Source: Nitrosotalea sp.
GTDB taxonomy: Archaea; Thermoproteota; Nitrososphaeria; Nitrososphaerales; Nitrosopumilaceae
Reading direction: 5' to 3'
NCBI GenBank assembly: GCA_028580875.1
Contig: JAJSDS010000003.1
Span: 1-45,154, forward strand
DNA length: 45,154 nt
Under the pieces are notes generated by a model, which was not told the origin of the DNA, ran no database searches, and saw only the letters and a list, made by a program, of their open reading frames with translations. Positions 11,972 to 44,721 of this stretch are shown here, one piece after another; position 1 is the stretch's first letter; every line of letters starts with the position of its first letter. Made by a program: the position numbers and the translations under genes.

Positions 11972-12637
11972 TCAAGATCTTCTAACAATAGCAGTCGTAA
12001 CTGCGCCCAAGACGATACCAAAGACGATATGCGATACGAACGATCCACCGAGAATTGAAGGCATTATCTTCTGAGACTGCTCCATAATCATTTTGTCCAT
12101 CTCTTCCATCTTCATCTTCTCATCTGCTGCAGATGTTCCTTTCATTCCTTGATTTTCCATGGTACCTTGGCTATTCATGGAAGAATTTTCCATGGAACTT
12201 CCGCTCATACCTTTTTCAGGTGCCATATTGCCTTGCATTGGCATCATTTTCATCAGGTCCATCATGTGTGGTGGCATTGCAGTCATTGCTACTGGTAAAA
12301 ATATCACTGCATATGCAATAATTCCGGTAGCTGTACCTAATGCAATTCCTTTTTTGAATCCGGTAATTTGCAATTTAGGGGTGCTGATTATCGCACCAAA
12401 AATGGCACCAATTGCTATACTGGTACCAAAATGTGCAGCTATGCCGGGTCCCAATGCTGCTTCGTATGACTGACCGGTTATCATTCCCATTATGATGGCA
12501 AAACAATTTGGTCCCATTCCTAACATGTTCATTAGGACGCTCATGATGCCGTACATTGCGGCGCCGCCTGCTATTCCTCCAATTATGCCTGCACTAAGTG
12601 ATTTCTTGGCAGGATATTGGATTGTTTGTGACGTCAT
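11972..12637 (-). CDS. Multi-TM membrane protein with Met-rich cytoplasmic/loop segment
   Basis: 'KKSLSAGIIGGIAGGAAMYGIMSVLMNMLGMGPNCFAIIMG...MMDLMKMMPMQGNMAPEKGMSGSSMENSSMNSQG'. Confidence 0.7.
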   Translation of the reverse strand: MTSQTIQYPAKKSLSAGIIGGIAGGAAMYGIMSVLMNMLGMGPNCFAIIMGMITGQSYEAALGPGIAAHFGTSIAIGAIFGAIISTPKLQITGFKKGIALGTATGIIAYAVIFLPVAMTAMPPHMMDLMKMMPMQGNMAPEKGMSGSSMENSSMNSQGTMENQGMKGTSAADEKMKMEEMDKMIMEQSQKIMPSILGGSFVSHIVFGIVLGAVTTAIVRRS

Positions 12638-27556: not shown

Positions 27557-27724
27557 ATGCCAAATTTATTATGTATAACTCCTAGTCTTCCTTTACAAAA
27601 AGTAATTAAAACAAATTCATATGATGTTGAATTGAGCAATATGTTGACTTTTACACAATGGTTTATTGAAGAGTACAGTTTTACAAGAAAAGCGATAGAG
27701 ATGAAGGGTGACTTTAGTAATTAA
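27557..27724 (+). CDS. Small ORF preceding the HamA-like gene
   Basis: MPNLLCITPSLPLQKVIKTNSYDVELSNMLTFTQWFIEEYSFTRKAIEMKGDFSN* (55 aa); overlaps the next start by 17 nt. Below ORF-track cutoff. Confidence 0.35.
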   Translation: MPNLLCITPSLPLQKVIKTNSYDVELSNMLTFTQWFIEEYSFTRKAIEMKGDFSN

Positions 27725-28517
27725 GACAGAACAAGTATATCATTCCAATGGATCAGCTAATGCAAAGTATTTTGGATTACAATTCCACAATGAAGGATTG
27801 GAAGAGTATTTGGGTGACCGAGTAAACAAGCGATTTTATGATTTAGAAGGAACAGCTGCAGCTATTGAAGAATTTTCCGATCTAGAATTGACAGGATTTA
27901 CGCGAACATCACTTGCAGCAATTTTTTCAAGTCAGCCCAGTGTCATACCATGGAAGATTGCCGAAACTTTTGTTGAATGTTACTTTGAAGATTTTCTCAA
28001 TATACAATTTCCATACAATGGAAGTCGAGATGCAAAGAATCCCAAAGCTAGTTTGGCAGGAGCTGATATAGTTGGTTTTACGTATGAAAATGATAATGTT
28101 GTATTAGTTTTTGGTGAAGTAAAAACATCCAATGATGCATCATATCCCCCAAATGTAGTTTATGGTAGAACTGGTTTAAAATATCAAATAAATGATCTGA
28201 TATCTAGTTGGAAAACCAGATCAAGTCTAATCAGATGGTTATATTTTAGAATAAAATCACATGATAATAGAGATGCTATCATGCCAGATTTCAAAAAAGC
28301 TGTTGCCATATATATCAAATCAAGATTTGAAAAAATGAAAATATTCGGAGTATTAGTTCGTGATGTGCAACCCAATGATGCAGACCTGAAAAGACAATAT
28401 GATACATTGATCACAGGTCTGAAATCTTTGACACAGTTAGAACTTCTAGCATTCTATCTACCGGTTAGGATATCAGATCTTTCTACAAAAATTGGAGGTA
28501 ATTCAAGTGGAACTTAA
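27708..28517 (+). CDS. HamA-like (DUF1837-type) PD-(D/E)xK nuclease candidate, Hachiman-like
   Basis: 'SLAGADIVGFTYENDNVVLVFGEVKTSND' (D...ExK nuclease signature); directly upstream of a large SF2 helicase gene, as in Hachiman/AbpAB. Confidence 0.65.
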   Translation: MTLVIKTEQVYHSNGSANAKYFGLQFHNEGLEEYLGDRVNKRFYDLEGTAAAIEEFSDLELTGFTRTSLAAIFSSQPSVIPWKIAETFVECYFEDFLNIQFPYNGSRDAKNPKASLAGADIVGFTYENDNVVLVFGEVKTSNDASYPPNVVYGRTGLKYQINDLISSWKTRSSLIRWLYFRIKSHDNRDAIMPDFKKAVAIYIKSRFEKMKIFGVLVRDVQPNDADLKRQYDTLITGLKSLTQLELLAFYLPVRISDLSTKIGGNSSGT

Positions 28518-31500
28518 ACATGAATTTCTCAATCTACTAGATAATCATCTAGTAAATGAGGCAAATGAAATTGTAAAACGAATCAAAATTAATAAAACAA
28601 TAGATATTCAATACACTTTAACTGCTGAAAATATTGAAAAAATTGAACAAGTGGTAGGTGTTTATGAGATTGCCATTTCAGATTTGTGGTCTTTCGCATT
28701 TAGTACTGAAGAAAGCGATATAGGTAAAAAGAAAAATTTTCATGCTCTTTGTAAAGAAACCTTTGATTTACTACAATACCTTCCGCTACCTCAAGAGCCG
28801 ATTGAAAAAATAAAACAGGCGTTAAAACTCTTGACCTATTCTTATCTTGGAGAAAAATGGGAGGATATGAAACGCTTGTTGGATGAGAATGATTTCTTCT
28901 GGAATGTGCCATTAGACCAAGAAAAGAATTGGGATGCACGATTATTTATGAAGACATATTTAGCAATTCTTCATCTCACAAGAAAAAAATCATGGAATGA
29001 TCTCAATATGGTATCTCAATTAATTGTTGAATTAAGAACTGAACAACAAGAATTTGAGAAAACATATCTTGAAAGCATAGGACCTGAATATCAACAAGGC
29101 TCTGCACTTGAATTGGCATCTTTCTACCACTTGGCAAAAAGCGTGGAATTGATAGGTCAGTACATGTTGCAAGGAACGCCTAACGACATACTTGATCAAT
29201 TAAACTTCCATTTTGACAAAGCCATCACATATTGTCAGGGTGCCAAGGTTGTAGAACTAGATCTAATTCTGAGGATGTTAAATGCTACATTTCGCAAAAT
29301 GATCCAAAATTCAGTATGGACTGTAGCGCGAAGAATTAATTCGCGTGTAACAAAATTCATCAAATTAATTACAGAAGATGAAACAAAACCTGTCTTTGAG
29401 CTATTATATCCTCAGCGTGTTGCAATATTGGAAAAAGGATTATTGGATCCTACCAGCAGAGCAATCGTAGTTAATTTGCCCACATCTAGTGGCAAAACCA
29501 TTATTGCAGAATTTAGGATACTGCAAGCGCTTAATCAGTTTGCAGAAGAGGGCGGTAAAATTGCATACGTGGTACCAACAAAAGCATTAGTCAATCAAAT
29601 CACATCTAGATTACGACGAGAATTAGGCAGATCTCCTCTTAACATCAAAGTAGAAAAAATGAGTGGTGCACTAGAAATAGATCCATTTGAAAATAATTTA
29701 CTGAATTCAAATAGCCTTTTTGATATTTTAGTTACCACTCCGGAGAAACTAAATCTTTTGATACGACATCCAGAAAAAAGTTTAGCAAAATCATTGGTTT
29801 TAATAATAATTGACGAAGCACATAATTTGGCAGATGGTGATAGGGGCGTTAATTTGGAAATGCTACTTTCCAACATAAAGAAAGACTGCGATAGAGCAAA
29901 TTTACTTTTGTTAACTCCTCTTGTACCTAACGGTATGGATGTAGCAAAATGGCTTGATCCAGATCATCCAAAATCCATAACTGTTGAACTAGACTGGTGG
30001 CAACCAAATGATAAGGTAATAGGACTGTATTATCCAGATGGGAAAAGAAATCATACCAAGACTTGTTACAAACCCTTAGCCACTTCTCGTGGAACCATTG
30101 ATCTGCAAGATGAATTTCTGATAGGCGAGTTAAATGATACATATTCATTAACAGAATTACGAAGTTCAAATTATTTTCTCACCGCTATTGTAGCCTCACA
30201 ATTACTTCAAAACCAAAGCATACTCGTACTAGCAGGTAAAATAGCTACAACCTGGAAGATTGCAAAAGAACTATACTCCATATTACCTAACGAAGAAATT
30301 CATGATGACAACATAGAACTTGTTAGCAAATTTGTAGCATCGGAACTAGGAGAAGATTTTCCTCTTGTTTCGTATCTGAAGAAAAGAATCGGAGTACACA
30401 GTGCTGGATTGCCTGATGACATCAGAGAATTAATGGAATGGCTGATGGAAATAGGATCACTCCGAATACTAGTGGCAACTACTACGATAGCACAAGGCAT
30501 GAATTTTCCAGTTTCTGCAATTCTTTTATCCACTTATTCACACCGAGAAGGAAAAATGCCTCCTCGTGATTTCTGGAATCTTGTTGGTAGAGCAGGTCGT
30601 ATTGATCAACGCTCAGTTGGTCTAGTGGGTATTGCAGTAAATAGCAAGAATGCAGAACAGGCTAAAGAAGCAGTGGACTATGTGCAAAAGAATCTAGAAG
30701 ATCTAGTATCCGTGCTTAAACAGATGATAGAAAAAGCTATTACTCTTAGTCAAGAATTAGATCTTACAATTCTGGCGCGGGAACCTGCGTGGTCCTCTTT
30801 TGTACAATATATTTCTCATATGTATTATCAATCTAAAACACTACAAAATTTCAGCTCAGAATTAGAAATGACAATGAGACGTACATATGCATATAATCAA
30901 CTTGATAGAGTCAAAAAACAAATTCTAATTAATGCAGTAAAACAATATGCACAAAAATTAGATAACAATAAACATTTAGCTCCGCTATCTGATCTTACCG
31001 GATTTTCACCAGATACAATTTATACTACCATAGGAAAGATAAGCGCTCTCAAGATACCACAATCCGAATGGACTAGTAGTAGACTCTTTTCCAGTGAAAG
31101 TACTATATTGACTAGATTAGTAGGAATAATGTTATACGATATTCCGGAAACTCGAAAAAATTTATCAGAAATTGATATTCCGGGTACAAGACTAGATGGA
31201 GCTACTCTTAGTAAAATCATAGGTGAATGGGTATCTGGAAAATCTGTAACTGAAATATCAAAAAAATATTTTAAAGGAGAGGATACAACATCTATTACAA
31301 AATGTGTTACTGCAATATATAGCAAAATTGTAAATTCTGCAACATGGGGGCTTGCTGGAATACAAAAAATGGCAGGAATAGATTTTGAAAAACTATCTGC
31401 TGAAGAAACAATGGAAATCAATAATCTTCCTGCTATGATATATTATGGCGTAAAAACTAGCGAAGCAATTTTGATGAGAATGAACAGTGTACCGCGCAGT

Positions 31501-31689
31501 ATTTCAAGTAATATGGGGACAATTTACAAAGATCAAATAACTAGCGTTCAAAACTCTAAATCTCCTGAAATAATGACTTGGCTAAAGAGTCTAGCAGATT
31601 CGGATTGGAATAAAGCCGTACCACAAGGGAAAAATATGTCAGGTATGGAATACAAAAAAATCTGGGAAAAATTATCAGGGGTATCATAA
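28507..31689 (+). CDS. HamB-like Ski2-type SF2 helicase
   Basis: Walker A NLPTSSGKTIIAEF, DEAH (LIIIDEAHNLADGDRGVNLEML), LVATTTIAQGMNFPVSAIL, motif VI DFWNLVGRAGRIDQRSVG. GGAGG RBS at 28493 then GTG 28507 (track opens at TTG 28492). Confidence 0.82.
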   Translation: MELKHEFLNLLDNHLVNEANEIVKRIKINKTIDIQYTLTAENIEKIEQVVGVYEIAISDLWSFAFSTEESDIGKKKNFHALCKETFDLLQYLPLPQEPIEKIKQALKLLTYSYLGEKWEDMKRLLDENDFFWNVPLDQEKNWDARLFMKTYLAILHLTRKKSWNDLNMVSQLIVELRTEQQEFEKTYLESIGPEYQQGSALELASFYHLAKSVELIGQYMLQGTPNDILDQLNFHFDKAITYCQGAKVVELDLILRMLNATFRKMIQNSVWTVARRINSRVTKFIKLITEDETKPVFELLYPQRVAILEKGLLDPTSRAIVVNLPTSSGKTIIAEFRILQALNQFAEEGGKIAYVVPTKALVNQITSRLRRELGRSPLNIKVEKMSGALEIDPFENNLLNSNSLFDILVTTPEKLNLLIRHPEKSLAKSLVLIIIDEAHNLADGDRGVNLEMLLSNIKKDCDRANLLLLTPLVPNGMDVAKWLDPDHPKSITVELDWWQPNDKVIGLYYPDGKRNHTKTCYKPLATSRGTIDLQDEFLIGELNDTYSLTELRSSNYFLTAIVASQLLQNQSILVLAGKIATTWKIAKELYSILPNEEIHDDNIELVSKFVASELGEDFPLVSYLKKRIGVHSAGLPDDIRELMEWLMEIGSLRILVATTTIAQGMNFPVSAILLSTYSHREGKMPPRDFWNLVGRAGRIDQRSVGLVGIAVNSKNAEQAKEAVDYVQKNLEDLVSVLKQMIEKAITLSQELDLTILAREPAWSSFVQYISHMYYQSKTLQNFSSELEMTMRRTYAYNQLDRVKKQILINAVKQYAQKLDNNKHLAPLSDLTGFSPDTIYTTIGKISALKIPQSEWTSSRLFSSESTILTRLVGIMLYDIPETRKNLSEIDIPGTRLDGATLSKIIGEWVSGKSVTEISKKYFKGEDTTSITKCVTAIYSKIVNSATWGLAGIQKMAGIDFEKLSAEETMEINNLPAMIYYGVKTSEAILMRMNSVPRSISSNMGTIYKDQITSVQNSKSPEIMTWLKSLADSDWNKAVPQGKNMSGMEYKKIWEKLSGVS

Positions 31690-31693
31690 TTAA

Positions 31694-33136
31694 GTGGTAG
31701 GTTTGAAAGGAATGCCTGAGAATTCTATTAAAGAAAAATTCATCTCAATGATTGATACTTTCAGAATTGAATCTGATAAATTATCACCCGAAGAAAAAAA
31801 ACACCTTTGGAATGACTTTGGAAAACCTTGTCAGCTCTATATTTTTTCCTGTAAGGATTATAATTTACACCTCATAATTAAAACGAAATTTTCTGAACTA
31901 CGTGATAAAACTATTGAATTAATTGAAATAACACCTGAGAACTTTGAAAATCAATTTGATGCTTTTGAGAATAGATCTACATGGAATAAAAAAATGGAAG
32001 AAAAAGACGGAGATTTTTTTATTCCGAGACCAAAACGAGTTGATTTAATTCGTGACTATTTGGTATATTTTGGACAAAAAATAATTCAGAGAAGAGCTGA
32101 CGTTCAAAACAAATCAACCGGATTTGTGGGGGATTTGTCATTGGGATACTGGGACTTTTCTGGAGATGTGGAAACCATTGATTTGGATGGGAGAGTTAGA
32201 GGACTCGTTCAAGGAGCCAAACAGTCATACCACAATTCCAAAAAGGAGACAATATCTGAAACACCAAAACCAACTTCCTCCTCTCATACAGTATCTGCAT
32301 GTGGTGCATATTTTTACCCCTTTGTGTTGATTGGAGAATTAAAAAAGACCACAAAAGGACAACTATCTGGTTCAGATCATTTACATTTGGATGACATTGT
32401 TTATGATTGTAAATTTGACGATCTTCGAGTAGCAGTAACAAAAGCAGGCCTATTGGTAGTAGAAACAGACGATGTAATCACTGCAATCAAAACCATCAAT
32501 ACTATATTTGGCACTGCCATGCTTCTGGGATTGCCAGTTTATTCTAGTAGGCCACAAGAAATTGCGTTCGTATACCTACGAGAAAGAGCATTTGTGAGTT
32601 CGTGGACAAGTACTACTATTCGTAGTTTAATGTATGATTATCGTACACGATTTTTACGATTGAATATCCCAAGACTACAGATTCATCTTAAGATTTTAAA
32701 ACAAATAATTCAGAGATCAGAAAAAATTTTGAAATCCAAATTAGATGAAGAAGTTAGATTACTTTTAGAATCGCATACATATTCAAACAGTTCCGAAAAC
32801 TTGCAATCTTTCAATACCTCGTGGTTGATAATTGAGAAATATTTGAGAAAGATTTGGGATGAAAAAATGAAATTTGATTTTGTAAATAAAAATATGAAAA
32901 ATAGAGATATTAACTATATCCTGAAAGATCTGAAAACTAGCGAAATTATTACACTAAGCGAATACTCTAAAATGCAAAATTTAAGAGGAACACGAAACAA
33001 AGTGTTCCACGGAAATAGTGAACCAAACATTACACAGACAAAGAGATGTTTTGAAACTGCAGAAGAAATAATCCGAAGAGAAACCAGGATTAACAAAAAA
33101 TTTGATTTTAATGTGTCAAATTACATATATTTTTAA
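31694..33136 (+). CDS. Uncharacterized protein with C-terminal HEPN-type RNxxxH motif
   Basis: C-terminal 'LSEYSKMQNLRGTRNKVFHGNSEPNITQTKRCFETAEEIIRRE' fits R[N]x3H in a helical context; starts 4 nt after the helicase stop. Confidence 0.6.
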   Translation: MVGLKGMPENSIKEKFISMIDTFRIESDKLSPEEKKHLWNDFGKPCQLYIFSCKDYNLHLIIKTKFSELRDKTIELIEITPENFENQFDAFENRSTWNKKMEEKDGDFFIPRPKRVDLIRDYLVYFGQKIIQRRADVQNKSTGFVGDLSLGYWDFSGDVETIDLDGRVRGLVQGAKQSYHNSKKETISETPKPTSSSHTVSACGAYFYPFVLIGELKKTTKGQLSGSDHLHLDDIVYDCKFDDLRVAVTKAGLLVVETDDVITAIKTINTIFGTAMLLGLPVYSSRPQEIAFVYLRERAFVSSWTSTTIRSLMYDYRTRFLRLNIPRLQIHLKILKQIIQRSEKILKSKLDEEVRLLLESHTYSNSSENLQSFNTSWLIIEKYLRKIWDEKMKFDFVNKNMKNRDINYILKDLKTSEIITLSEYSKMQNLRGTRNKVFHGNSEPNITQTKRCFETAEEIIRRETRINKKFDFNVSNYIYF

Positions 33137-33243: not shown

Positions 33244-35412
33244 TTGTATGATGATGTGGAATTAGTTTCTCTAACCATGAAAAATTTTCTTTCAATAGGT
33301 GAGAAATCTGAGACAATCAGTTTTGACAAACTTACCACTATTGTGGGTCCAAATGAGAGCGGTAAAACCAATATTTTCAGGGCTTTAGCATTTGTTAATG
33401 ACTGTCTAAATACCAATACTAGTAATCCTGATCCTTATTATCATAATGGGGATTTAACAAAAGATTTGGAAGTCAAATTATCTATGAAATTAAACGATAA
33501 CGAAATAAGTGGTCTTGCTAATTACATCTTCTGCTCTATTCTATCGGATACTCAACCTCTTAATAGATTTGAAATGACACAATCGGCGATTAGTTTAATC
33601 GAAACATTCCTTCACCATCACAGTAAAACCATCGCTGAAGATTTGTTTAGATACATTACAATTGTCATTAGACGAACAGAAGCAAGATCAATCTATCAAG
33701 GTGATATCATAGTAAAATTAGGCAAAGATGAAGACCTCTACCTTAAACAATATAGCCGAATTACCAAGGATATTACAACACAGCAAGGAGGAAAAAATAT
33801 TTCAGAAGTAATAGTATCCGTAATTCAGAAGAAGAATCCGGATGCAGTAAATGATTTCTTAAAAGATACTAGTAAACCATTCCCAGAATTTAGTTTTAGC
33901 AAAGAGGAAATTATTGATTTCTTCAAAAAAATTGATCCAGATGATAAAATGGTGACATATGACTTTCGAAGTTTTAATTTTGGTGAAGGAAATATTCGTG
34001 AAAAAAACTATCCAGAGGCAATTCTTCTGTTAGAATTTTTAAGAAACATGGGTGCAGAAGAAAGAGGAGTTTCGCTTTTACCGATTATTTCAAAAATCGT
34101 TAGTTCATCCATAGTACGAGTAACTGATCTTCGTACAAAACCACAAGCATTCCTTAGTTTCAAAAATACTTTTCCATACAAATCAATTAGTATGAATGAC
34201 TTGTCTGGTGAATCACTTCCCGAGATTCTTTTTAAGTTAAAAAACAGCCCTTATCCACATATAAGAAAAGCGTACAATAAAATTCAAACATCTTTTAGAA
34301 AGATGTGTAATAATCTTGATTTCGAAATAGGAATAAGGCCTGTGGAATTGACGGTTGGAACAAATACAAAAAAAACTTCCATAGGTCCAGAATACGTAAA
34401 AACAAATGATGGAACGACTATTGAAAATGAATTAGTCATACATTTTATTCGCGATAATGTTTCAATTCCATTAGAATTTTCTGCCGCCGGAATATTTGAG
34501 ATTCTTTTATTACTCACTGCTCTGATAGGACAAAAAGGTAAAGTCATTTTATTGGATGAACCTGCAGTAAACCTTCATCCTCTACTTCAAAGGAAAGTCA
34601 TAGAATTAATTGAAAGTGAAATTGCACAAGATAATGACAATCAGATTATTATAATAACTCATTCACCTTACATGATCAATCCAAGAAATATTGAAAATAT
34701 CTGGAGAATTTCTAGAACCAATAATGAGGTAATGTTCATCAATGTTGGTGAGGCCTTAGATGAACTATCTGAATCCGAAAAACAAAAAATCTTGTTAAAC
34801 CTACAAAGTACAGATATTAGATCTGTATTATTTTCTAAAGGAGTAATACTTGTTGAGGGACCATCTGATAAATTAGTAATTGAACAAGTTGATAGGTTTC
34901 TTTCTTCAAAAGATAAAGGCGCATGTATTAATGATAACGATTGGTATGTCTTAGATATTGTTGGAAAACACTCTCTTTGGGCATACTTGAAAATGGTTAC
35001 AAAACTACGTTTATCCTTTGTCTCCGTAATGGATTATGACGCTTTGATGTATTGTGATAAAAACGAGGCCATTAAGGATCAAAACATACCTGTATCTGCC
35101 ATTCCACGTGCATTGTATAATGTAAAATTACTTTCAGATAAACAAATAGATGATTTAATTCAAATGGCAAAAAATGTGAAAGATGGGTGGTATCCTGATA
35201 ATGAACATGAAATTCTTAATTCAATGGCTAAGACAAATGGCATTTTTGTATTCACGCAGGATTTAGAAGGAGTTTTACAACAACAGGTAAAAAGAAAAGA
35301 GAGCAAACCTTTGAAAGATCTAAATCTGGTCTTGGAGAAAATTACTGAAGATAAACTTCCACAGGAATTTGAACTAATGTCTAAATTCATTAAAGAACGA
35401 ATGGTCCTGTAA
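33244..35412 (+). CDS. OLD-family ATPase/TOPRIM nuclease
   Basis: Walker A 'TTIVGPNESGKTNIFRAL', ABC-type Walker B 'KVILLDEPAVNLHPLLQRKV...IIIITHSPYMI', TOPRIM 'VILVEGPSDKLVIEQ...FVSVMDYDALMY'. Confidence 0.88.
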   Translation: MYDDVELVSLTMKNFLSIGEKSETISFDKLTTIVGPNESGKTNIFRALAFVNDCLNTNTSNPDPYYHNGDLTKDLEVKLSMKLNDNEISGLANYIFCSILSDTQPLNRFEMTQSAISLIETFLHHHSKTIAEDLFRYITIVIRRTEARSIYQGDIIVKLGKDEDLYLKQYSRITKDITTQQGGKNISEVIVSVIQKKNPDAVNDFLKDTSKPFPEFSFSKEEIIDFFKKIDPDDKMVTYDFRSFNFGEGNIREKNYPEAILLLEFLRNMGAEERGVSLLPIISKIVSSSIVRVTDLRTKPQAFLSFKNTFPYKSISMNDLSGESLPEILFKLKNSPYPHIRKAYNKIQTSFRKMCNNLDFEIGIRPVELTVGTNTKKTSIGPEYVKTNDGTTIENELVIHFIRDNVSIPLEFSAAGIFEILLLLTALIGQKGKVILLDEPAVNLHPLLQRKVIELIESEIAQDNDNQIIIITHSPYMINPRNIENIWRISRTNNEVMFINVGEALDELSESEKQKILLNLQSTDIRSVLFSKGVILVEGPSDKLVIEQVDRFLSSKDKGACINDNDWYVLDIVGKHSLWAYLKMVTKLRLSFVSVMDYDALMYCDKNEAIKDQNIPVSAIPRALYNVKLLSDKQIDDLIQMAKNVKDGWYPDNEHEILNSMAKTNGIFVFTQDLEGVLQQQVKRKESKPLKDLNLVLEKITEDKLPQEFELMSKFIKERMVL

Positions 35413-35553: not shown

Positions 35554-38283
35554 ATGAAAGACAAGAATGCCATGAGCGAAAAAGAGACTAGAGAACATAT
35601 TGACAAACAATTACGAAATGTAGGATGGATAAAGAGGTACATTAAAGAGGAAGTAAATTCGGTCAAGTCAAATTTTAAAGATAAAGAATACGTACTCTCT
35701 GAAGGTAAAGACGACGATTCGGGTAGATTTATTGATTATTTGTTATTGGCTGAAGATAATAGTCCTATAGCATTCATTGAAGCAAAGAGATTCTCAAAAG
35801 CAGAAGATGATGGTAGATTACAAGCAAGAACCTATCTTAATGATATAAAAAAATACACTGGAGAAAATCTACCTTATTTTCTAACAAATGGTAACAAATG
35901 GCTTCTCATAGACCAAGACGGAATAGAAAGACCAGTTAGTGGACCATTTTCTCAATTAGATATTACCAGAAGAAATGATCTATATGAAAAAAGAATAGAC
36001 CCTACAACTGTAAATATCAACAGAATAGTCAGCAGACCTAGAAGTATCATCATTGTAAAACAAATGATGGAGCACATCAAAAAAGGTCATAGATCTGCTC
36101 TAGTTTCCATGGCTACCGGTTCTGGAAAAACACGAGTTGCCATGTCAATGATTGATGTCTTGATTAGAGCAAATATCGTTAGAAATGTGTTATTTATTGC
36201 TGATAGGATAGCATTAGCGAATCAGGCAAAATCAGCAGGATTTAAAGAATTTTTTTCTGAAGCTGTTGTTGATCTTAGAGACGACCCGAAAAGTTTCCCA
36301 AACGGTCTATACGTTACAACAGTTCAGACTCTAAGAGGAGGAAAGAAGAGTAGGTATTATGAAAAATTCAGTCCTGGGTTTTTTGATTTAATAATCTTTG
36401 ATGAAGCGCATAGATCCATTTATGATCCAAATAGAGAAGTTCACAGATATTTTGATGCCATGAGAATTGGATTAACTGCTACTCCATCAAGAGCAGAAAA
36501 CAAGAATACATTCGAGTTATTTGATTGTACTCGTGAAAAGCCAACAGTAGAATATACTTATGATGAAGCTATACGGGATGGAATTCTTGTTCCCTATAAG
36601 GCGGAAGCAATAGACACTCAAGTTTTATCTTTAGGCATAGAAGGAGCGAAACTCACAAAAGAATTACAGACACAATTAATCAAACAAGAAGAAGATCCTC
36701 GGTTTATGATGTTACCCGGTTCTTCTTTTGCTAAAGTGTTTATGGATGATAAAACTAACGAACTAATAGTAACAGAATTTCTCAAAAGATGCTACAAATC
36801 AGATGAAGGAAAACCTGCAAAAACAATTTTCTTCTGTGTAAACATCAATCATGCCAAGCACATTAAAAAAATCTTCAACAGAATAGCTCCTGCATTAAGT
36901 AATGAAGTTCAAACTATTGTGTCTGAATATTATAGATATACTGATGAGATCAATAGATTCAAGCTTGACTCTGAGCCTAGAATTGCTCTATCTGTAGGTG
37001 TGTTAGATACTGGAATAGATATTCCAGAAGTGTGTAATCTTGTATTTGCAAAGCCAGTATTCTCAGGTATTAGGTTTTGGCAGATGCTGGGAAGAGGTAC
37101 TAGGAATTTGGAATCCTGCAAGTTCAAAGAATGGCTTCCAAATAGGGAAAAACATGATTTTCTAATTCTAGATTTTACTATTGGGGGACACTCTAACATA
37201 AAATATCATAACTTGAGAGAATCTAAGGAAAGAAAGGCAGGAACAGACGTTCTTACCAAGATCTTTCTCAATAGAGTAGATTTATTAAAAAAACCATTGA
37301 ATAAAAACCAGAAAGAATTCATCGAAAACAAAATTATTGAAGAGGTAGACTCTCTAAACAAAGATTCATTCATAGTACGAGAAAAACTTCCTATAATTAA
37401 GAAAGTAGTTTCAAGAAAGTTTGATTTAAAAATATTCATGGAAGAATTAAAAAAAGAGATAGCACCTCTTATCTCACTAAATCCGAGAGATAATCCATTA
37501 GTTTCAGCATTTATTTTGCAAATAGAGAAACTATTTGGATATATTTTAGATAATGATAATGAGGGAATTAATGAAATTAGAGAATATGTTAAAGAAAAAA
37601 TGGAAAATATTCTACAAAAAGATCATTTAGAAAGCATACAAGAAAAAAGAGAAGAAATAATGAAAGTGTTACAAGAAACGTTTTGGGATGGAATTTCGTT
37701 CGATGATGTAAAATTCATTCTAAAAGAATTATCTTCTCTTATGATATATTACGAAACAAATCCCAAGAAATTAATTCAAGTAGATGCTCCTGATCTCGTT
37801 ATGACTGTAGAGAAACTTCAGTATGTAGTAAGAGAAGATCCAGTAATGAAAGAATTCATTGAATCAAATCCATTAATGAAAAAGATCAAAGATGGCGAAG
37901 GAATCACTTCTCCTGAATTATTAAAATTAGAAGAACAGCTAAAAGAGATCAAACCAGAATTTACTATGGACAATATTGAAAAAATTCAGAAAACTGATTT
38001 CATTCTATTTTTGAGAAAAATTCTAGGATTATCACAAAATTATGATCCTCAGGAAATGATTGAGAAAGAATTTGATAAACACATTATAGAAAAAAATCCT
38101 AATTATAATTCTGAGCAGTTAAAATTTTTGGAATTACTAAAGAAGAATTTTGCTAGAATAAAGCACATAGAACTCAAAGACTTTACCGAGAAACCTCTTT
38201 CTAACGAAAGACCTCTAGACAAGTTTCCTACCTCTGAATTGCAAAAGATAGTCGTGGAATGCAATAAAATTAAGATGAAATAA
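35554..38283 (+). CDS. hsdR: Type I restriction enzyme R subunit
   Basis: 'GRFIDYLLLAEDNSPIAFIEAKRF' nuclease motif, 'VSMATGSGKTRVAMSMIDVL', 'DLIIFDEAHRSIYD', 'GLTATPSR', 'WQMLGRGTR'. Confidence 0.93.
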   Translation: MKDKNAMSEKETREHIDKQLRNVGWIKRYIKEEVNSVKSNFKDKEYVLSEGKDDDSGRFIDYLLLAEDNSPIAFIEAKRFSKAEDDGRLQARTYLNDIKKYTGENLPYFLTNGNKWLLIDQDGIERPVSGPFSQLDITRRNDLYEKRIDPTTVNINRIVSRPRSIIIVKQMMEHIKKGHRSALVSMATGSGKTRVAMSMIDVLIRANIVRNVLFIADRIALANQAKSAGFKEFFSEAVVDLRDDPKSFPNGLYVTTVQTLRGGKKSRYYEKFSPGFFDLIIFDEAHRSIYDPNREVHRYFDAMRIGLTATPSRAENKNTFELFDCTREKPTVEYTYDEAIRDGILVPYKAEAIDTQVLSLGIEGAKLTKELQTQLIKQEEDPRFMMLPGSSFAKVFMDDKTNELIVTEFLKRCYKSDEGKPAKTIFFCVNINHAKHIKKIFNRIAPALSNEVQTIVSEYYRYTDEINRFKLDSEPRIALSVGVLDTGIDIPEVCNLVFAKPVFSGIRFWQMLGRGTRNLESCKFKEWLPNREKHDFLILDFTIGGHSNIKYHNLRESKERKAGTDVLTKIFLNRVDLLKKPLNKNQKEFIENKIIEEVDSLNKDSFIVREKLPIIKKVVSRKFDLKIFMEELKKEIAPLISLNPRDNPLVSAFILQIEKLFGYILDNDNEGINEIREYVKEKMENILQKDHLESIQEKREEIMKVLQETFWDGISFDDVKFILKELSSLMIYYETNPKKLIQVDAPDLVMTVEKLQYVVREDPVMKEFIESNPLMKKIKDGEGITSPELLKLEEQLKEIKPEFTMDNIEKIQKTDFILFLRKILGLSQNYDPQEMIEKEFDKHIIEKNPNYNSEQLKFLELLKKNFARIKHIELKDFTEKPLSNERPLDKFPTSELQKIVVECNKIKMK

Positions 38284-38307
38284 TATGGTCTACTAAGGTA
38301 GACCATA
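38284..38307. promoter_or_regulatory. Perfect hairpin/operator TATGGTCTAC-TAAG-GTAGACCATA
   Basis: 10-bp arms, 4-nt loop, immediately after the hsdR stop and about 40 bp before the RHH gene. Confidence 0.65.
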
Positions 38308-38345: not shown

Positions 38346-38744
38346 ATGATGACTAATACTGGAAAATCACTTGGTAACAAAACCATTTCTACAAAAATTC
38401 CACGGGAAGAATTTACTCGCTTCCAATATTATTGTGCTCAGAATGGGGAAACAATTAACGCATCATTAAGAAGGATGATTCTTTCTGAAATTGATAATCC
38501 GCATCCATCAAAAATAGCAGGTAATAGTATGTTTCAATATAATAAAAACAAGGATAACTTTTCCTGGAGAATAGCTTTGGATGATGAAACAACATTTAGT
38601 ATTGATGATGATCTTCCAGCAAACTCAATAGAACATTTACTTGAATCTTTAATGAAAGCAAAAAACGAACGCAATTCATTTATTAAAAAAACTAACATTG
38701 ATTCTGTTTCACTTCCAAACAAATTGTTGAGGAGAAGAAAATGA
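38346..38744 (+). CDS. Ribbon-helix-helix-like small protein in R-M operon
   Basis: 'KTISTKIPREEFTRFQYYCAQNGETINASLRRMILSEI' MetJ/Arc-like pattern; overlaps hsdS by 4 nt. Confidence 0.6.
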   Translation: MMTNTGKSLGNKTISTKIPREEFTRFQYYCAQNGETINASLRRMILSEIDNPHPSKIAGNSMFQYNKNKDNFSWRIALDDETTFSIDDDLPANSIEHLLESLMKAKNERNSFIKKTNIDSVSLPNKLLRRRK

Positions 38745-39874
38745 AAAATGCATTATCAAGTGGATGGGAGACAGTAGAATTGGGTGATGTGACTGTTTGT
38801 TTAGATGGAGAAAGAATTCCATTAAATAGCGAAGATAGATCTAAAATGAAAGGAAATATTCCATATTACGGTGCAAACGGACAGATAGATTCAATTAATA
38901 AACATATTTTTAATGAAGAACTTCTTTTGCTAGCAGAAGATGGGGGATCTTGGGGACCACATCAGAAATGCTCGTATATTATTAATGGAAAATCATGGGT
39001 AAATAATCATGCTCATGTACTAAAGATGAAAAAAGGAACTGATATTTCTTACTTGATGTATTTCTTAAATCATCATGATCTGAACCAATTCATTTCAGGT
39101 ACTACTAGAGGTAAACTAAATCAGGGAGTTATGAAAAAAATACCAATAATACTTCCCCCGTTGCACGTACAAAAACAAATAGTATCACTTTTAGAAAAAG
39201 CAGAAAAACTAAAAGAAATACGAGATGAAGCAGATAAACTGACAAAAGAATATCTAAAAGCCGTTTTCTTGGAGATGTTTAGAAATTTTGAGGATTCCGA
39301 AATACTTGGAAATCATATATTATTTTTAACAAGTGGATCTAGAGGGTGGGCAAAGTATTACTCTGAGAGTGGGGATGTATTCCTAAGAATTGAAAATGTG
39401 GGTAGGAATCAACTCAATACGGAAAATGTAGTATACGTAAAAGCTCCAAATACACAGGAAGCTAAAAGAACAAAAGTTGAGCCAAGAGATATTTTATTGA
39501 GTATAACTGCAGATCTTGGAAGAACATGTGTAATCCCATCTGAATTTCCAAGAGCTTTCATTAATCAACATCTTGCAATTTTAAGATTGGATAAATTACT
39601 TGATCCGATGTTTGTAGCTCAGTATCTTACCTCAAACAAAGGAATGACCCAAATAAACAAATTAAGTAAAGGAGGTACTAAAGATGGATTAAATTTTACA
39701 GACATTCGTTCCATCAAGGTTCCAATGCCACCAATAAAACTTCAGAAAGATTTTGCAAACATTGTTTATAGATATGAAAAAATTAAAGAATACCAAAAAC
39801 AATCACAAGAACAAATTCACAATTTATTTAATAACATATTGCAAAAATCATTCAAAGGAGAATTAGCATGTTAG
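38741..39874 (+). CDS. hsdS: Type I restriction-modification specificity subunit
   Basis: Two TRD halves with conserved 'PIILPPLHVQKQIVSLLEKAEKL' and 'VPMPPIKLQKDFANIVYRYEKIK'. Confidence 0.93.
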   Translation: MKNALSSGWETVELGDVTVCLDGERIPLNSEDRSKMKGNIPYYGANGQIDSINKHIFNEELLLLAEDGGSWGPHQKCSYIINGKSWVNNHAHVLKMKKGTDISYLMYFLNHHDLNQFISGTTRGKLNQGVMKKIPIILPPLHVQKQIVSLLEKAEKLKEIRDEADKLTKEYLKAVFLEMFRNFEDSEILGNHILFLTSGSRGWAKYYSESGDVFLRIENVGRNQLNTENVVYVKAPNTQEAKRTKVEPRDILLSITADLGRTCVIPSEFPRAFINQHLAILRLDKLLDPMFVAQYLTSNKGMTQINKLSKGGTKDGLNFTDIRSIKVPMPPIKLQKDFANIVYRYEKIKEYQKQSQEQIHNLFNNILQKSFKGELAC

Positions 39875-41337
39875 ATGCAGAATTAAAATCAAAGATCAAT
39901 CTTCTCTGGGATAAATTCTGGAGTGGAGGAATTTCAAATCCATTACAAGCTATCGAACAGATGTCTTATCTTATTTTCATGAAAAGATTAGAAGATGAAG
40001 ATGTCAAAAGAGAACAAAACTCAAAACTTTTGGAAGAAAAATACTACTCTGTATTCAAAAGCAATGAAGATTGTAAATGGTCAAAGTGGACTGGAATGTC
40101 TGCTGAAAAAATGCTTGAACATGTGCGAGATACAGTATTCCCTTTCTTGAGAAAATTAGACGGTGGAGAAAAATCCATTTATCACAAATACATGAAAGAT
40201 GCAAGCTTTACTATTCCTACAGCATCACTTCTTGTTGAAGCTGTAAAAATAATTAATGATATGCATATCAAAGAACAAAACAGAGATACTCAGGGAGATA
40301 TTTATGAATACCTTCTAAGTCAGTTACAAACAGCGGGTAAAAACGGTCAGTTCAGAACTCCGAGACATATTATCAAAATGATGGTTGAAATTCTAGAACC
40401 CAAATATGGTGATAAGATATGTGATCCAGCTTGTGGCACTGCAGGATTTCTTGTTGCTTCATACGAGCACATAATTCGACAAAATACCTCGAAAGGAATC
40501 AGTGAAGGTCATTATGGTGGCGATAAATTAAACGAGAAACAATGGAAGATATTAGAAAATGAAACCTTCTATGGGTTTGATTTTGACCAGACAATGGTTA
40601 GAATTTCTTTAATGAACTTGATGATGCATGGAATTTCTAGCCCAAACATAGAACAGAAAAATACTCTGTCAAAGAGATATGACGAATCAAACTCTTATGA
40701 TGTAGTTCTAGCCAATCCTCCATTTAAGGGAAGTATAGACGAATCTGAAATTGGAGAGAACTTTAGAACACAGACAAAGAAGACCGAATTATTATTCTTA
40801 GAGTTAATGTATAACTTGCTAACAAACGGAGGTAGATGCTCTGTTATAGTTCCTGATGGAGTATTGTTTGGAAACTCTAAAGCTCACAAAAAGATAAGAG
40901 AATTATTGCTTGATAAATGTCGTCTTGATGCAGTAATCTCTATGCCATCTGGAGTCTTCAAGCCTTATGCAGGAGTATCTACTGCAGTATTATTTTTCAC
41001 AAAGGGAGAACCGACAAAAGAAGTCTGGTTTTATGATATGGAAAGTGATGGGTTTAGTCTTGATGATAAGAGAACCCAAACTGACAAAAACGACATTCCA
41101 GATATAATTGAAAAATTCAAGAACAGAAATAAAGAAAAGAATTATGATAGAAAGAAGAAATACTTCTTTATTTCAGTTAAGGAAATTAAGGAAAATAATT
41201 ATGATCTGAGCATCTCAAAATACAAAGAAATCGAATATGAAGAAGTCAAATATGAAAAACCAGAAGTGATTAAAAAGAAAATTTTGGATTTGGAAAATAA
41301 GATTATTGTAACACTAAACCAAATGAAAATGAGTTGA
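39868..41337 (+). CDS. hsdM: Type I restriction-modification methyltransferase subunit
   Basis: 'GQFRTPRHIIKMMVEILEPKYGDKICDPACGTAGFLVASYEHI', 'VVLANPPFKG', 'GGRCSVIVPDGVLFG'. Confidence 0.96.
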   Translation: MLDAELKSKINLLWDKFWSGGISNPLQAIEQMSYLIFMKRLEDEDVKREQNSKLLEEKYYSVFKSNEDCKWSKWTGMSAEKMLEHVRDTVFPFLRKLDGGEKSIYHKYMKDASFTIPTASLLVEAVKIINDMHIKEQNRDTQGDIYEYLLSQLQTAGKNGQFRTPRHIIKMMVEILEPKYGDKICDPACGTAGFLVASYEHIIRQNTSKGISEGHYGGDKLNEKQWKILENETFYGFDFDQTMVRISLMNLMMHGISSPNIEQKNTLSKRYDESNSYDVVLANPPFKGSIDESEIGENFRTQTKKTELLFLELMYNLLTNGGRCSVIVPDGVLFGNSKAHKKIRELLLDKCRLDAVISMPSGVFKPYAGVSTAVLFFTKGEPTKEVWFYDMESDGFSLDDKRTQTDKNDIPDIIEKFKNRNKEKNYDRKKKYFFISVKEIKENNYDLSISKYKEIEYEEVKYEKPEVIKKKILDLENKIIVTLNQMKMS

Positions 41338-41342
41338 ATAAT

Positions 41343-42215
41343 ATGTCATCTCAACCCGTTTCTTCACTTAGTTTTTCTGATGCACAAAGAGCCTGTGAGC
41401 ATTTAATAGACAATATTTACGAATTTGTTGATACAATTAATTCTGTATTTCCAGGTGCTGGTTATGAAGTTCTATCCTCTCATTTAGTAAGTATGAAAGC
41501 AAGAATACTGACTGCGAGAAGCCCTTTTCTCACCACTGATGAATGTGAAGGTTTTATTGGTGAATTTCTTTATACATTCACTCATTTCAATCCGGGTATT
41601 GATCAGAATCTTCAAGATTTCCATAAAGCCTACGTGGAAATTACTCAATTCTTTAGAGATAATCCTGGGATAGGTTCCTTTGAATTAACTAATTATGGTA
41701 ACGACAGAGTAGAACAAATGGTGAAAATAAACCATGCTTCTAACGAAGTTCTAGTTTCATTAAAAAATAATCCATGCAATGTCATCTCACTTTATGCGTC
41801 TTTCTCTATTCATTCTTCTAAAACCGAGATGTCAGAATATGCATTATTAAAAGAATTATCTAATTACAAAAAAATAATGCAGACAAATTCTGCTACTGTA
41901 AGTTTTGATCCAATCAAGATATTTTCAGTAAACAATCCAACTCAAAAGCAAAATGGTCAATTTATTACCGAGGCAAGAGCCATTCGAAATTTAATAGATC
42001 ATCATAAATTTGATCTTGATGTCACGAGTAATCCATGTACAATCCATTTTAAGAGTCAAGCAGGACCTGATTGGGAATTCACATATGATAGAAAATTTAC
42101 AGGTTTGGAATTCAAGGATTATTTGGCACTGCTTGACGTTTTTTACAAATGTCTTGTAAATCTCCTTTTTTGTTATCAATTACTTCAAGTACTCAGAGCA
42201 AAATTTGTAATTTAA
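41343..42215 (+). CDS. HEPN-motif protein downstream of hsdM
   Basis: C-terminal region 'FITEARAIRNLIDHHKFDLDV' (RNxxxH); overlapping or adjoining the hsdM stop, same strand. Confidence 0.6.
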   Translation: MSSQPVSSLSFSDAQRACEHLIDNIYEFVDTINSVFPGAGYEVLSSHLVSMKARILTARSPFLTTDECEGFIGEFLYTFTHFNPGIDQNLQDFHKAYVEITQFFRDNPGIGSFELTNYGNDRVEQMVKINHASNEVLVSLKNNPCNVISLYASFSIHSSKTEMSEYALLKELSNYKKIMQTNSATVSFDPIKIFSVNNPTQKQNGQFITEARAIRNLIDHHKFDLDVTSNPCTIHFKSQAGPDWEFTYDRKFTGLEFKDYLALLDVFYKCLVNLLFCYQLLQVLRAKFVI

Positions 42216-42280: not shown

Positions 42281-42637
42281 TCATTTGGTTCTTTTTTTCA
42301 GTAGTGCAAGTTCTGGTAATGCAAGGGCAAAATGAATGTGAATGCAATCATCTGCCTCATCCTGGCTACAAAACATCTTGTTGTTTTTAATATATACCTC
42401 TGCCAGCTTCCCTGTCTTGTGATCTCTGAGTACCAATGTTTCACCCACACTGATTTTTTCAATATATGGTGCATAGTTTTTTAAAAAATTATCTTTTTCC
42501 ACATTCAACAAAAGAGTTTCATTGACATAATCTACAAGTGTTAATCCCTTTTCTTTTGCTTTGTTTTTTACTTTTTGATATGTTGTTTCTTCTATGGCAA
42601 CAGTTGGATTACGTTTCTGTTTGTCTTTCATTGACAT
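42281..42637 (-). CDS. RHH-like DNA-binding protein
   Basis: 'KRNPTVAIEETTYQKVKNKAKEKGLTLVDYVNETLLLNVEKD'. Confidence 0.65.
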   Translation of the reverse strand: MSMKDKQKRNPTVAIEETTYQKVKNKAKEKGLTLVDYVNETLLLNVEKDNFLKNYAPYIEKISVGETLVLRDHKTGKLAEVYIKNNKMFCSQDEADDCIHIHFALALPELALLKKRTK

Positions 42638-42887: not shown

Positions 42888-43709
42888 TTGAGTCAAGGAC
42901 AAGGCCTCTCAAGTTACAACATAACGAACAACAAATGTCCAAGATGCAATAAACTTGGTCTCTGTGTCATGGATAATGAGATTTGTTGCAGCAAATGTGG
43001 AATTGTACTTGGACCTGATTACCAATTACAAGAGACCACTTCAAGCTCCAAACTAAACTTGTACCAGATCACTGAAGTGGGATGCAAAAAAGTAAATCTT
43101 GAATTTGCAAGACATATACATGAAAACAAATCTGATGTATCCCAGATATCAAATGTCTGTGTAAAACTAGATCTTCCAATCTATGCTGCACAAGACATTA
43201 ACATTGTATATCAAAAACTCTCAAAACACAAGCAACAAGAAAAAAAGACATACTCTAATTCGATTAAACAATGTGAAATTGATGATAAGGATACTTCAGA
43301 ATTAAAAAGGAATAGGCCAAAAGGGTGTACCAAATCACACATTGTAGCATTTGCAATACACCTGACATGTAGAAAATATGGCCTCCCAAGGTCTGATGCA
43401 CAAATAATTGAAGCAATTAAAATGAATTTTGGAATGAAACGCACGTTTACCATTTTAAAGACATATTCATTGAATCGAATTACTGCTGAAAGTCTTGGAA
43501 TAGTTTGCGATTATGATAAGAGTAATTACTATATGAGAATTCTACTAAATAAGATACGCTTCAAAATAGGAGATGGACCTCTTTTTAATAAAATACAACG
43601 ACAGGCCATTGAGAATTTAACCCATATTACTGACACACGAGAAAATACCAGAGCACAACGAGCCCTAGATCTTGCATTAGAGGGAGCAAAATTAAATGTA
43701 CAAGTATGA
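42888..43709 (+). CDS. TFIIB/TFB-like protein with zinc ribbon and cyclin-like region
   Basis: 'CPRCNKLGLCVMDNEICCSKCGIVLGPDYQ' then helical 'HIVAFAIHLTCRKYGLPRSDAQIIEAIKMNFGMKRTFTILKTY'. Confidence 0.75.
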   Translation: MSQGQGLSSYNITNNKCPRCNKLGLCVMDNEICCSKCGIVLGPDYQLQETTSSSKLNLYQITEVGCKKVNLEFARHIHENKSDVSQISNVCVKLDLPIYAAQDINIVYQKLSKHKQQEKKTYSNSIKQCEIDDKDTSELKRNRPKGCTKSHIVAFAIHLTCRKYGLPRSDAQIIEAIKMNFGMKRTFTILKTYSLNRITAESLGIVCDYDKSNYYMRILLNKIRFKIGDGPLFNKIQRQAIENLTHITDTRENTRAQRALDLALEGAKLNVQV

Positions 43710-44721
43710 AGAATCTATAGTAAATATCTCAAAACTAAAACCATGTCCTGTCAAGGTTACACTACATACTGAAAAGATGTTAAAGGACCTTACAGGTATT
43801 GTAAAAACAAATCCAGAGCAAATTGAACCAATCGTAGTTGCAATTCTTGATTCTGAACAATACATTCTAAACGGTGATCTTCGTGTAAAGGCCTTTGAAA
43901 ATGCAGGAAAAGATTCCATCAAGGCCTGGTGTATCAATGTCAAGACAATTTCAGATGTTGTAAGGCTGCATATCGAACTGAACACACATGGTTCCATTAA
44001 TCCAATCAAGATGGCTGAAGCTGTACGTTATCTTGAAAAACATAATGTGGTACCATTGGTTGATAAAAGATACCTGGAACTTGCCAAAAAAACACTATAT
44101 CCCAAAGTGCGCCAGGAATGGGACGACTTTATCATTACAGCATGTCAAAAGCATCCAAATGTAGATCTCCCCATTCATATCATAGAAAAAATTGCTGATT
44201 TCTCAACTGAAAAAGAGCAACTAACTGCAACAACTGTCATTTTGGATACAGTGCGGACTCTCAAACCCAACAGATTTGTCTTTCCTGCACCTCCTGCACT
44301 TGAGGTGATACTTTCATCTCTTACGCAAAGACAATCTGAAAAAGAGATAATCGTATTTGAGCCTCCTGAATCTGAAAAGAAAGGCTGGAAAAAACCAAAC
44401 ATGAAGGAAGCAGAGAATCTAATCCGGGGTTCATCACATAACAGTCTTGTACATTGTAAATGTGGGAGAGACCTGCTTTTGGACACAAAAACCCACCGGG
44501 TCTCAAATGTCAATTTCGATAAAGAGACCCAGTGCATAAAACTTGTAGGTGGAGATGGCCAGGCAGCATACGTGGTACCGCCAACAGTCATCGAGTTTTT
44601 AAAAGTTGAAGACGGGCAATCACTTCGAATTATTACCATAGATGGTTCGAGAGAACTTGAAAAGTTTGCAAAGAGCCTAAAATCAAATTCATTTAGAATG
44701 GTTGTAGTTACTTGTAATTGA
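43696..44721 (+). CDS. ParB/Srx-like domain protein
   Basis: 'NPEQIEPIVVAILDSEQYILNGDLRVKAFENAGKDSIKAWCINV...ELNTHGSINPIKMAEAVRYLEKH'; overlaps the TFB-like gene. Confidence 0.75.
   Translation: MYKYEESIVNISKLKPCPVKVTLHTEKMLKDLTGIVKTNPEQIEPIVVAILDSEQYILNGDLRVKAFENAGKDSIKAWCINVKTISDVVRLHIELNTHGSINPIKMAEAVRYLEKHNVVPLVDKRYLELAKKTLYPKVRQEWDDFIITACQKHPNVDLPIHIIEKIADFSTEKEQLTATTVILDTVRTLKPNRFVFPAPPALEVILSSLTQRQSEKEIIVFEPPESEKKGWKKPNMKEAENLIRGSSHNSLVHCKCGRDLLLDTKTHRVSNVNFDKETQCIKLVGGDGQAAYVVPPTVIEFLKVEDGQSLRIITIDGSRELEKFAKSLKSNSFRMVVVTCN

Follow-up and report, generated by a model that had tools for sequence, protein, structure and literature searches.

The gene that closes a complete type I restriction-modification (R-M) operon of Nitrosotalea sp. 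encodes what is judged here, at slightly better than even chances, to be a divergent HEPN-type endoribonuclease effector, an exchangeable accessory gene whose product would act as a second-line RNase beside the type I R-M enzyme. The DNA analysed, hereafter the window, covers positions 1 to 45,154 of the forward strand of contig JAJSDS010000003.1 (assembly GCA_028580875.1), that is, a stretch of 45,154 nucleotides. The HEPN-like gene is located at 41343..42215 on the plus strand, directly after hsdM, and its product carries an Rx4H motif that is kept in two relatives from other genomes.

Architecture of the type I R-M operon

The operon is organized in the order hsdR, RHH gene, hsdS, hsdM and HEPN-like gene, all on the plus strand. 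The restriction/translocase subunit (hsdR, 35554..38283, 909 aa) is recognized by ResIII and EcoEI_R_C, the specificity subunit (hsdS, 38741..39874, 377 aa) by Methylase_S (2.7e-35), and the methyltransferase subunit (hsdM, 39868..41337, 489 aa) by the Pfam models N6_Mtase (9.1e-69) and HsdM_N (6.7e-15) as well as by the PADLOC type I MTase model (1e-183), hsdS and hsdM overlapping by 7 nt. The interval between hsdR and hsdS is occupied by a gene for a small RHH/RelB-like protein of 132 aa (38346..38744), whose match to RelB_antitoxin (0.003) lies far under the cut-off, and a perfect inverted repeat of 10 bp, TATGGTCTAC-TAAG-GTAGACCATA, is found between hsdR and this RHH gene (38284..38307).

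The HEPN-like gene starts on the same strand with an ATG (41343) located 5 nt past the hsdM stop, giving a protein of 290 aa, while an alternative TTG start at 41334 (41334-42215) would give 293 aa and an overlap of 4 nt with hsdM. An open reading frame bearing RNxxxH directly after hsdM, as noticed in the sequence-only reading, is thereby confirmed, with R215 and H220 as the residues concerned. The HEPN-like gene is presumably co-transcribed with hsdS-hsdM.

The Rx4H motif and its conservation

The motif IRNLIDH occupies residues 214-220 of the HEPN-like protein, within ARAIRNLIDHHKF, and the codons of R215-N-L-I-D-H220 lie at 41985..42002 on the plus strand. The HEPN signature Rx4-6H, often with a polar residue after the arginine, is recognizable in R215-N-L-I-D-H220 as well as in RDSIAH and RNSIAH of the two relatives. 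By itself, such a motif constitutes weak evidence, since shuffling the HEPN-like protein yields RNxxxH in 1.8%, R[ND]xxxH in 3.5% and the general Rx4-6H pattern in 58% of the shuffled sequences.

The first relative, in genome G087, was identified by whole-genome searches within the phylum (E 4.4e-13, 24% identity). The second one, in genome G411, was detected in its C-terminal region by a search with a profile of the window and G087 proteins (E 2.7e-4), the C-termini of the window and G411 proteins being 31% identical over 71 aa from the motif onward. The known members thus amount to three in all, and no homologue was found in the scanned public genomes, viral contigs, plasmids and phages. Two further sets of matches were rejected: a Vibrio phage match (E 0.4) corresponds to an unrelated methyltransferase-like ORF that does not contain the motif, and the weak A1 profile matches in G088, G147 and G354 do not show the motif context.

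In the alignment of the three proteins, IRNLIDH of the window stands against IRDSIAH of the G087 relative (L002) and IRNSIAH of the G411 relative (L026), and R215 and H220 belong to just 22 invariant columns. Since the motif is kept in two divergent relatives, it represents more than a chance match. Besides, the three proteins have in common a module made of a helix, the motif, strands and a long helix, the strands and the long helix being predicted in the window protein. The second acidic residue that is typical of active HEPN domains (Ex3[KR], helix 2) is not conserved across the three proteins: E162 and K170 are common to the window and G087 proteins, with a spacing that differs from Ex3[KR], and the glutamate is lost in the G411 protein.

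Family assignment and predicted fold

The HEPN-like protein has no meaningful match in Pfam, NCBIfam, PADLOC or PHROGs, nor among the sequences of the PDB. Domain searches detected neither an ATPase nor any other domain in it, in agreement with the earlier remark that a PrrC-type ATPase is missing. When the three C-termini were compared with 24,736 Pfam models, only three weak matches were obtained, namely two HEPN families, MAE_28990 (0.018) and pEK499_p136 (0.044), and DUF7436 (0.0047). The HEPN profile matches come from the relatives (0.018-0.15, under the gathering scores), the window protein giving none, and the G087 protein also shows a weak match to a Cas13e profile (0.026) across the motif. 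Searches of the phylum with PF18737 and PF18736 returned no member above the cut-off.

A family profile of pEK499_p136 was then assembled from plasmids for profile-profile comparison. The best alignment places motif on motif, and the strands following the motif are aligned as well, with a score of 20.9 that none of 200 column-shuffled controls reached (mean 12.1, maximum 17.7). Under a stricter control with unrelated fragments, 1 of 211 scored above the pEK499_p136 comparison, and masking the motif shifts the alignment to a chance match of 7 columns; the profile support can therefore be considered as real but motif-dependent. The hhalign probability of this comparison, made with shallow profiles, is 3%.

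The sequence-only reading had pointed to a HEPN motif in the protein. Whereas this Rx4H motif is kept in the two relatives, the fold itself is still unconfirmed, as AlphaFold2 run with 2-3 sequences only produced low-confidence models (pLDDT 44), a failure due to insufficient alignment depth. A Foldseek search of the PDB with the first of these models gave no credible match, such a search being meaningless with that model. Both low-confidence models nevertheless place the motif at a helix end, followed by strands and then a long helix. The placement of the motif described for HEPN domains (PMC3710099), a four-helix bundle in which the motif ends helix 3 and a loop or insert leads on to helix 4, agrees with this predicted order, which is to be read in the light of the pLDDT of 44.

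On the one hand, the protein may be a helical protein other than a HEPN nuclease, with a binding, R-M accessory, anti-restriction or regulatory role, in which case its Rx4H would be fortuitous or structural only. The missing significant family match, the low-confidence fold, the motif-driven profile score and the frequency of Rx4-6H among the shuffles all go in this direction. On the other hand, R[ND]xIxH and its flanking residues are kept at 24-31% identity with an equal order of structural elements, and the two relatives show a weak affinity to HEPN families. This explanation is considered rather unlikely. The protein is best interpreted as a HEPN-like RNase, with a probability slightly above one half.

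Linkage to type I R-M loci

The sequence-only reading, which had suggested a possible R-M-linked RNase, took a gene unlinked to hsd genes at other loci as evidence against it, and this is the situation of both relatives found. HsdM was detected with E < 1e-40 in 12 of 398 genomes of the phylum, including that of the window, and a second draw of 171 genomes of the order added three more hsd loci. The closest hsd operons are those of G138 and G227 (HsdM 84% identical, HsdR 77-79%), in which the slot after hsdM contains a GNAT acetyltransferase-like gene and an opposite-strand regulator, respectively. No homologue of the HEPN-like gene was found in the other surveyed hsd loci within the stretch examined, nor were hsd homologues found around the relatives (32 kb in G087, 16 kb in G411). 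As the relatives and the surveyed hsd loci thus do not combine the two, the linkage has been seen once, in a slot of varying content, and a conserved tie of the HEPN-like gene to type I R-M is not supported.

Such a distribution brings forward the possibility that the gene is independent cargo of the defence island, which came to lie behind hsdM and shares its transcription only by accident, without regulatory coupling. The location of the relatives away from hsd genes and the different slot content of the sister operons speak for it, whereas the 5-nt spacing, or the 4-nt overlap from the TTG, suggests selection for co-expression, even if such packing is common in archaea. This scenario is a serious contender, though held with less than even confidence, and it can overlap with the others in that accidental cargo can equally be a HEPN RNase.

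Several side observations were made at these loci. In G227, a HEPN_Swt1 gene (PF18731, 3.9e-07, above the cut-off; L023:1961-2938, minus strand) lies about 4.5 kb downstream of hsdM, and in G138 a protein with KIRNEYVAH, matching no HEPN family, is encoded about 1.4 kb downstream of hsdM on the other strand (L024:7047-7682, plus strand); both are unrelated to the HEPN-like protein of the window. The G087 relative is itself adjoined by a 139-aa ORF with KRNDIAH (L003:12426-12845; weak RiboL-PSP-HEPN match, 0.018) and by a CAP12/Pycsar-type TIR gene (L003:15257-16129; PF10137, 8.8e-20), the whole forming a small defence cluster.

The RHH gene and the inverted repeat

The RHH protein is 59% identical to a copy at the same operon place in G138 (L024:11783-12181) and is absent in G227. 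It may act as an operon regulator, and the inverted repeat at 38284-38307 is a possible operator or attenuator for RHH-hsdS-hsdM. At the equivalent place in G138, a looser repeat, TGGGT...ACCCA, was read by eye (L024, around 12210-12236). The presence of the RHH gene goes together with that of a same-strand gene immediately 3' of hsdM, both being found in the window and in G138 and neither in G227, although three operons are too few for this association to carry weight.

These features could be taken as the signs of a toxin-antitoxin-like pair arranged around hsdS-hsdM, in which the last gene would encode an exchangeable toxin, HEPN-like in the window and GNAT in G138, kept in check by the RHH protein as antitoxin or as repressor. 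Indeed, GNAT together with RHH is a known toxin-antitoxin pairing, the RHH gene is present in the two operons with a same-strand gene after hsdM, its product weakly matches RelB, and the palindrome stands just upstream of it. However, only three operons were compared, the putative toxin and antitoxin genes are non-adjacent, and the 59% identity of the RHH proteins extends over their full length, including the C-terminus, in spite of unrelated partners, a pattern more in keeping with an operon regulator than with an antitoxin specific to its partner. A pair of this kind is consequently regarded as improbable. Even less credit, and the least of all the explanations considered, is given to the more elaborate idea that, in this archaeal subfamily of type I R-M operons, the position after hsdM serves as a docking slot where toxin-like effectors such as the HEPN-like protein or GNAT are exchanged, under the control of the RHH protein and of the palindrome upstream of its gene. 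The effector would be freed upon loss or inhibition of the modification or restriction module, thereby constituting an ATPase-free archaeal guard.

Comparison with known systems and proposed function

The PrrC and RloC nucleases contain HEPN domains (Anantharaman et al. 2013, PMC3710099), so that the membership of PrrC among HEPN nucleases, put forward in the sequence-only reading, is borne out by the literature. At least 16 HEPN clades, mostly bacterial, have been linked to R-M, and a PrrC-like regulation was proposed for them (PMC3710099). The EcoprrI/PrrC system, of type IC, is reviewed in PMC3874165. The window resembles it by the presence of a putative HEPN RNase gene within a type I hsd operon and by an active site of the Rx4-6H type. 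In contrast, the N-terminal ABC-ATPase by which PrrC senses nucleotides has no counterpart in the HEPN-like protein, the nearest ABC-type ATPase being encoded by a separate OLD-like gene 5' of hsdR, and the tie of PrrC to R-M is experimental while that of the HEPN-like gene is a linkage at one locus. No PrrC-type profile was matched by the HEPN-like protein in profile searches.

A true guard of restriction on the PrrC model would be kept inactive by binding to HsdR/M/S until a viral anti-restriction protein perturbs this assembly and thereby frees the RNase. This possibility draws on the position of a HEPN-like gene in an hsd operon, on the precedent of prrC, which lies inside the type IC operon and whose product is held by the EcoprrI enzyme (PMC3874165), and on the general proposal made for R-M-linked HEPN proteins (PMC3710099). 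It is nonetheless unlikely: the linkage concerns one locus only, the relatives being away from hsd genes, the nearest hsd operons have the GNAT gene (G138) or the opposite-strand regulator (G227) instead, and the sensor ATPase is absent from the HEPN-like protein.

Among the other HEPN families, pEK499_p136-like proteins (PF18736), some of which occur in R-M operons (PMC3710099), share with the HEPN-like protein the succession of a motif (RNSVAH), strands and a long helix, as well as the motif-register profile match. They are smaller (166 aa against 290 aa), their helical N-terminus is short where that of the HEPN-like protein is long, and the match is sub-threshold and motif-driven. The MAE_28990/MAE_18760-like HEPN family (PF18737), whose members are recorded together with genes for ParB nucleases and DNA methylases or in fused form (PMC3710099), is weakly matched across the motif by the G087 relative (0.018-0.049, under the cut-off) and not by the window protein. 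Finally, HEPN_Swt1 in G227 is a genuine HEPN gene located 3' of an hsd operon closely related to that of the window, but it lies outside the operon, with other genes and another strand intervening, and its product does not resemble the HEPN-like protein in sequence.

According to the preferred reading, that of a HEPN-type second-line effector, the C-terminal half would bear a putative metal-independent active site, R215-N-x3-H220, at a helix end, and the helical N-terminal half would serve as a family-specific control or partner-binding region. The gene, an exchangeable accessory that closes the operon, would be expressed with the R-M genes, and its product, a probably dimeric HEPN-like RNase, would stay latent in the healthy cell. 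An infection proceeding despite restriction would then trigger the cleavage of tRNA or another RNA, leading to growth arrest as a second-line defence. If the protein is active, the range of R-M-linked HEPN effectors, for the most part recorded from bacteria, would extend to ammonia-oxidiser-type archaea through a protein family that escapes the present models of Pfam, NCBIfam, PADLOC and PHROGs. In the light of the general description of R-M-linked HEPN proteins in 2013 (PMC3710099), the gene is a divergent, single-locus archaeal candidate of a category already described; since the concept of a HEPN RNase backing up R-M had been put forward at that time, the gain lies in one testable archaeal example and not in a new principle.

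Defence-island surroundings

The setting of the HEPN-like gene is a defence island. Upstream of the operon, a separate defence gene encodes an OLD/AbiLi/GajA-like ATPase-TOPRIM protein (33244..35412, plus strand), separated from hsdR by 141 nt and absent from the hsd neighbourhoods of G138 and G227. A split PrrC, composed of this OLD-like ATPase and the HEPN-like protein, was envisaged and rejected for now, because OLD has a nuclease of its own (TOPRIM) and neither of the two genes is found again at the sister hsd operons. Further upstream stands a Hachiman-like pair, PDC-M23A/B (27708-31689, plus strand; PADLOC PDC-M23A 2.7e-78, PDC-M23B E=0), and directly 3' of it a gene for a 480-aa protein that has no family match (31694-33136, plus strand), whose C-terminus, LRGTRNKVFHGNSE, resembles the HEPN motif RNxxxHG.

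No tRNA gene was found in the window. Just 3' of the R-M operon, an RHH-like gene with a weak NikA match is encoded on the minus strand (42281-42637), followed on the plus strand by a TFIIB-like gene (42888-43709) and a ParB-N-like gene (43696-44721), and the succession of these three genes after the operon suggests a mobile element.
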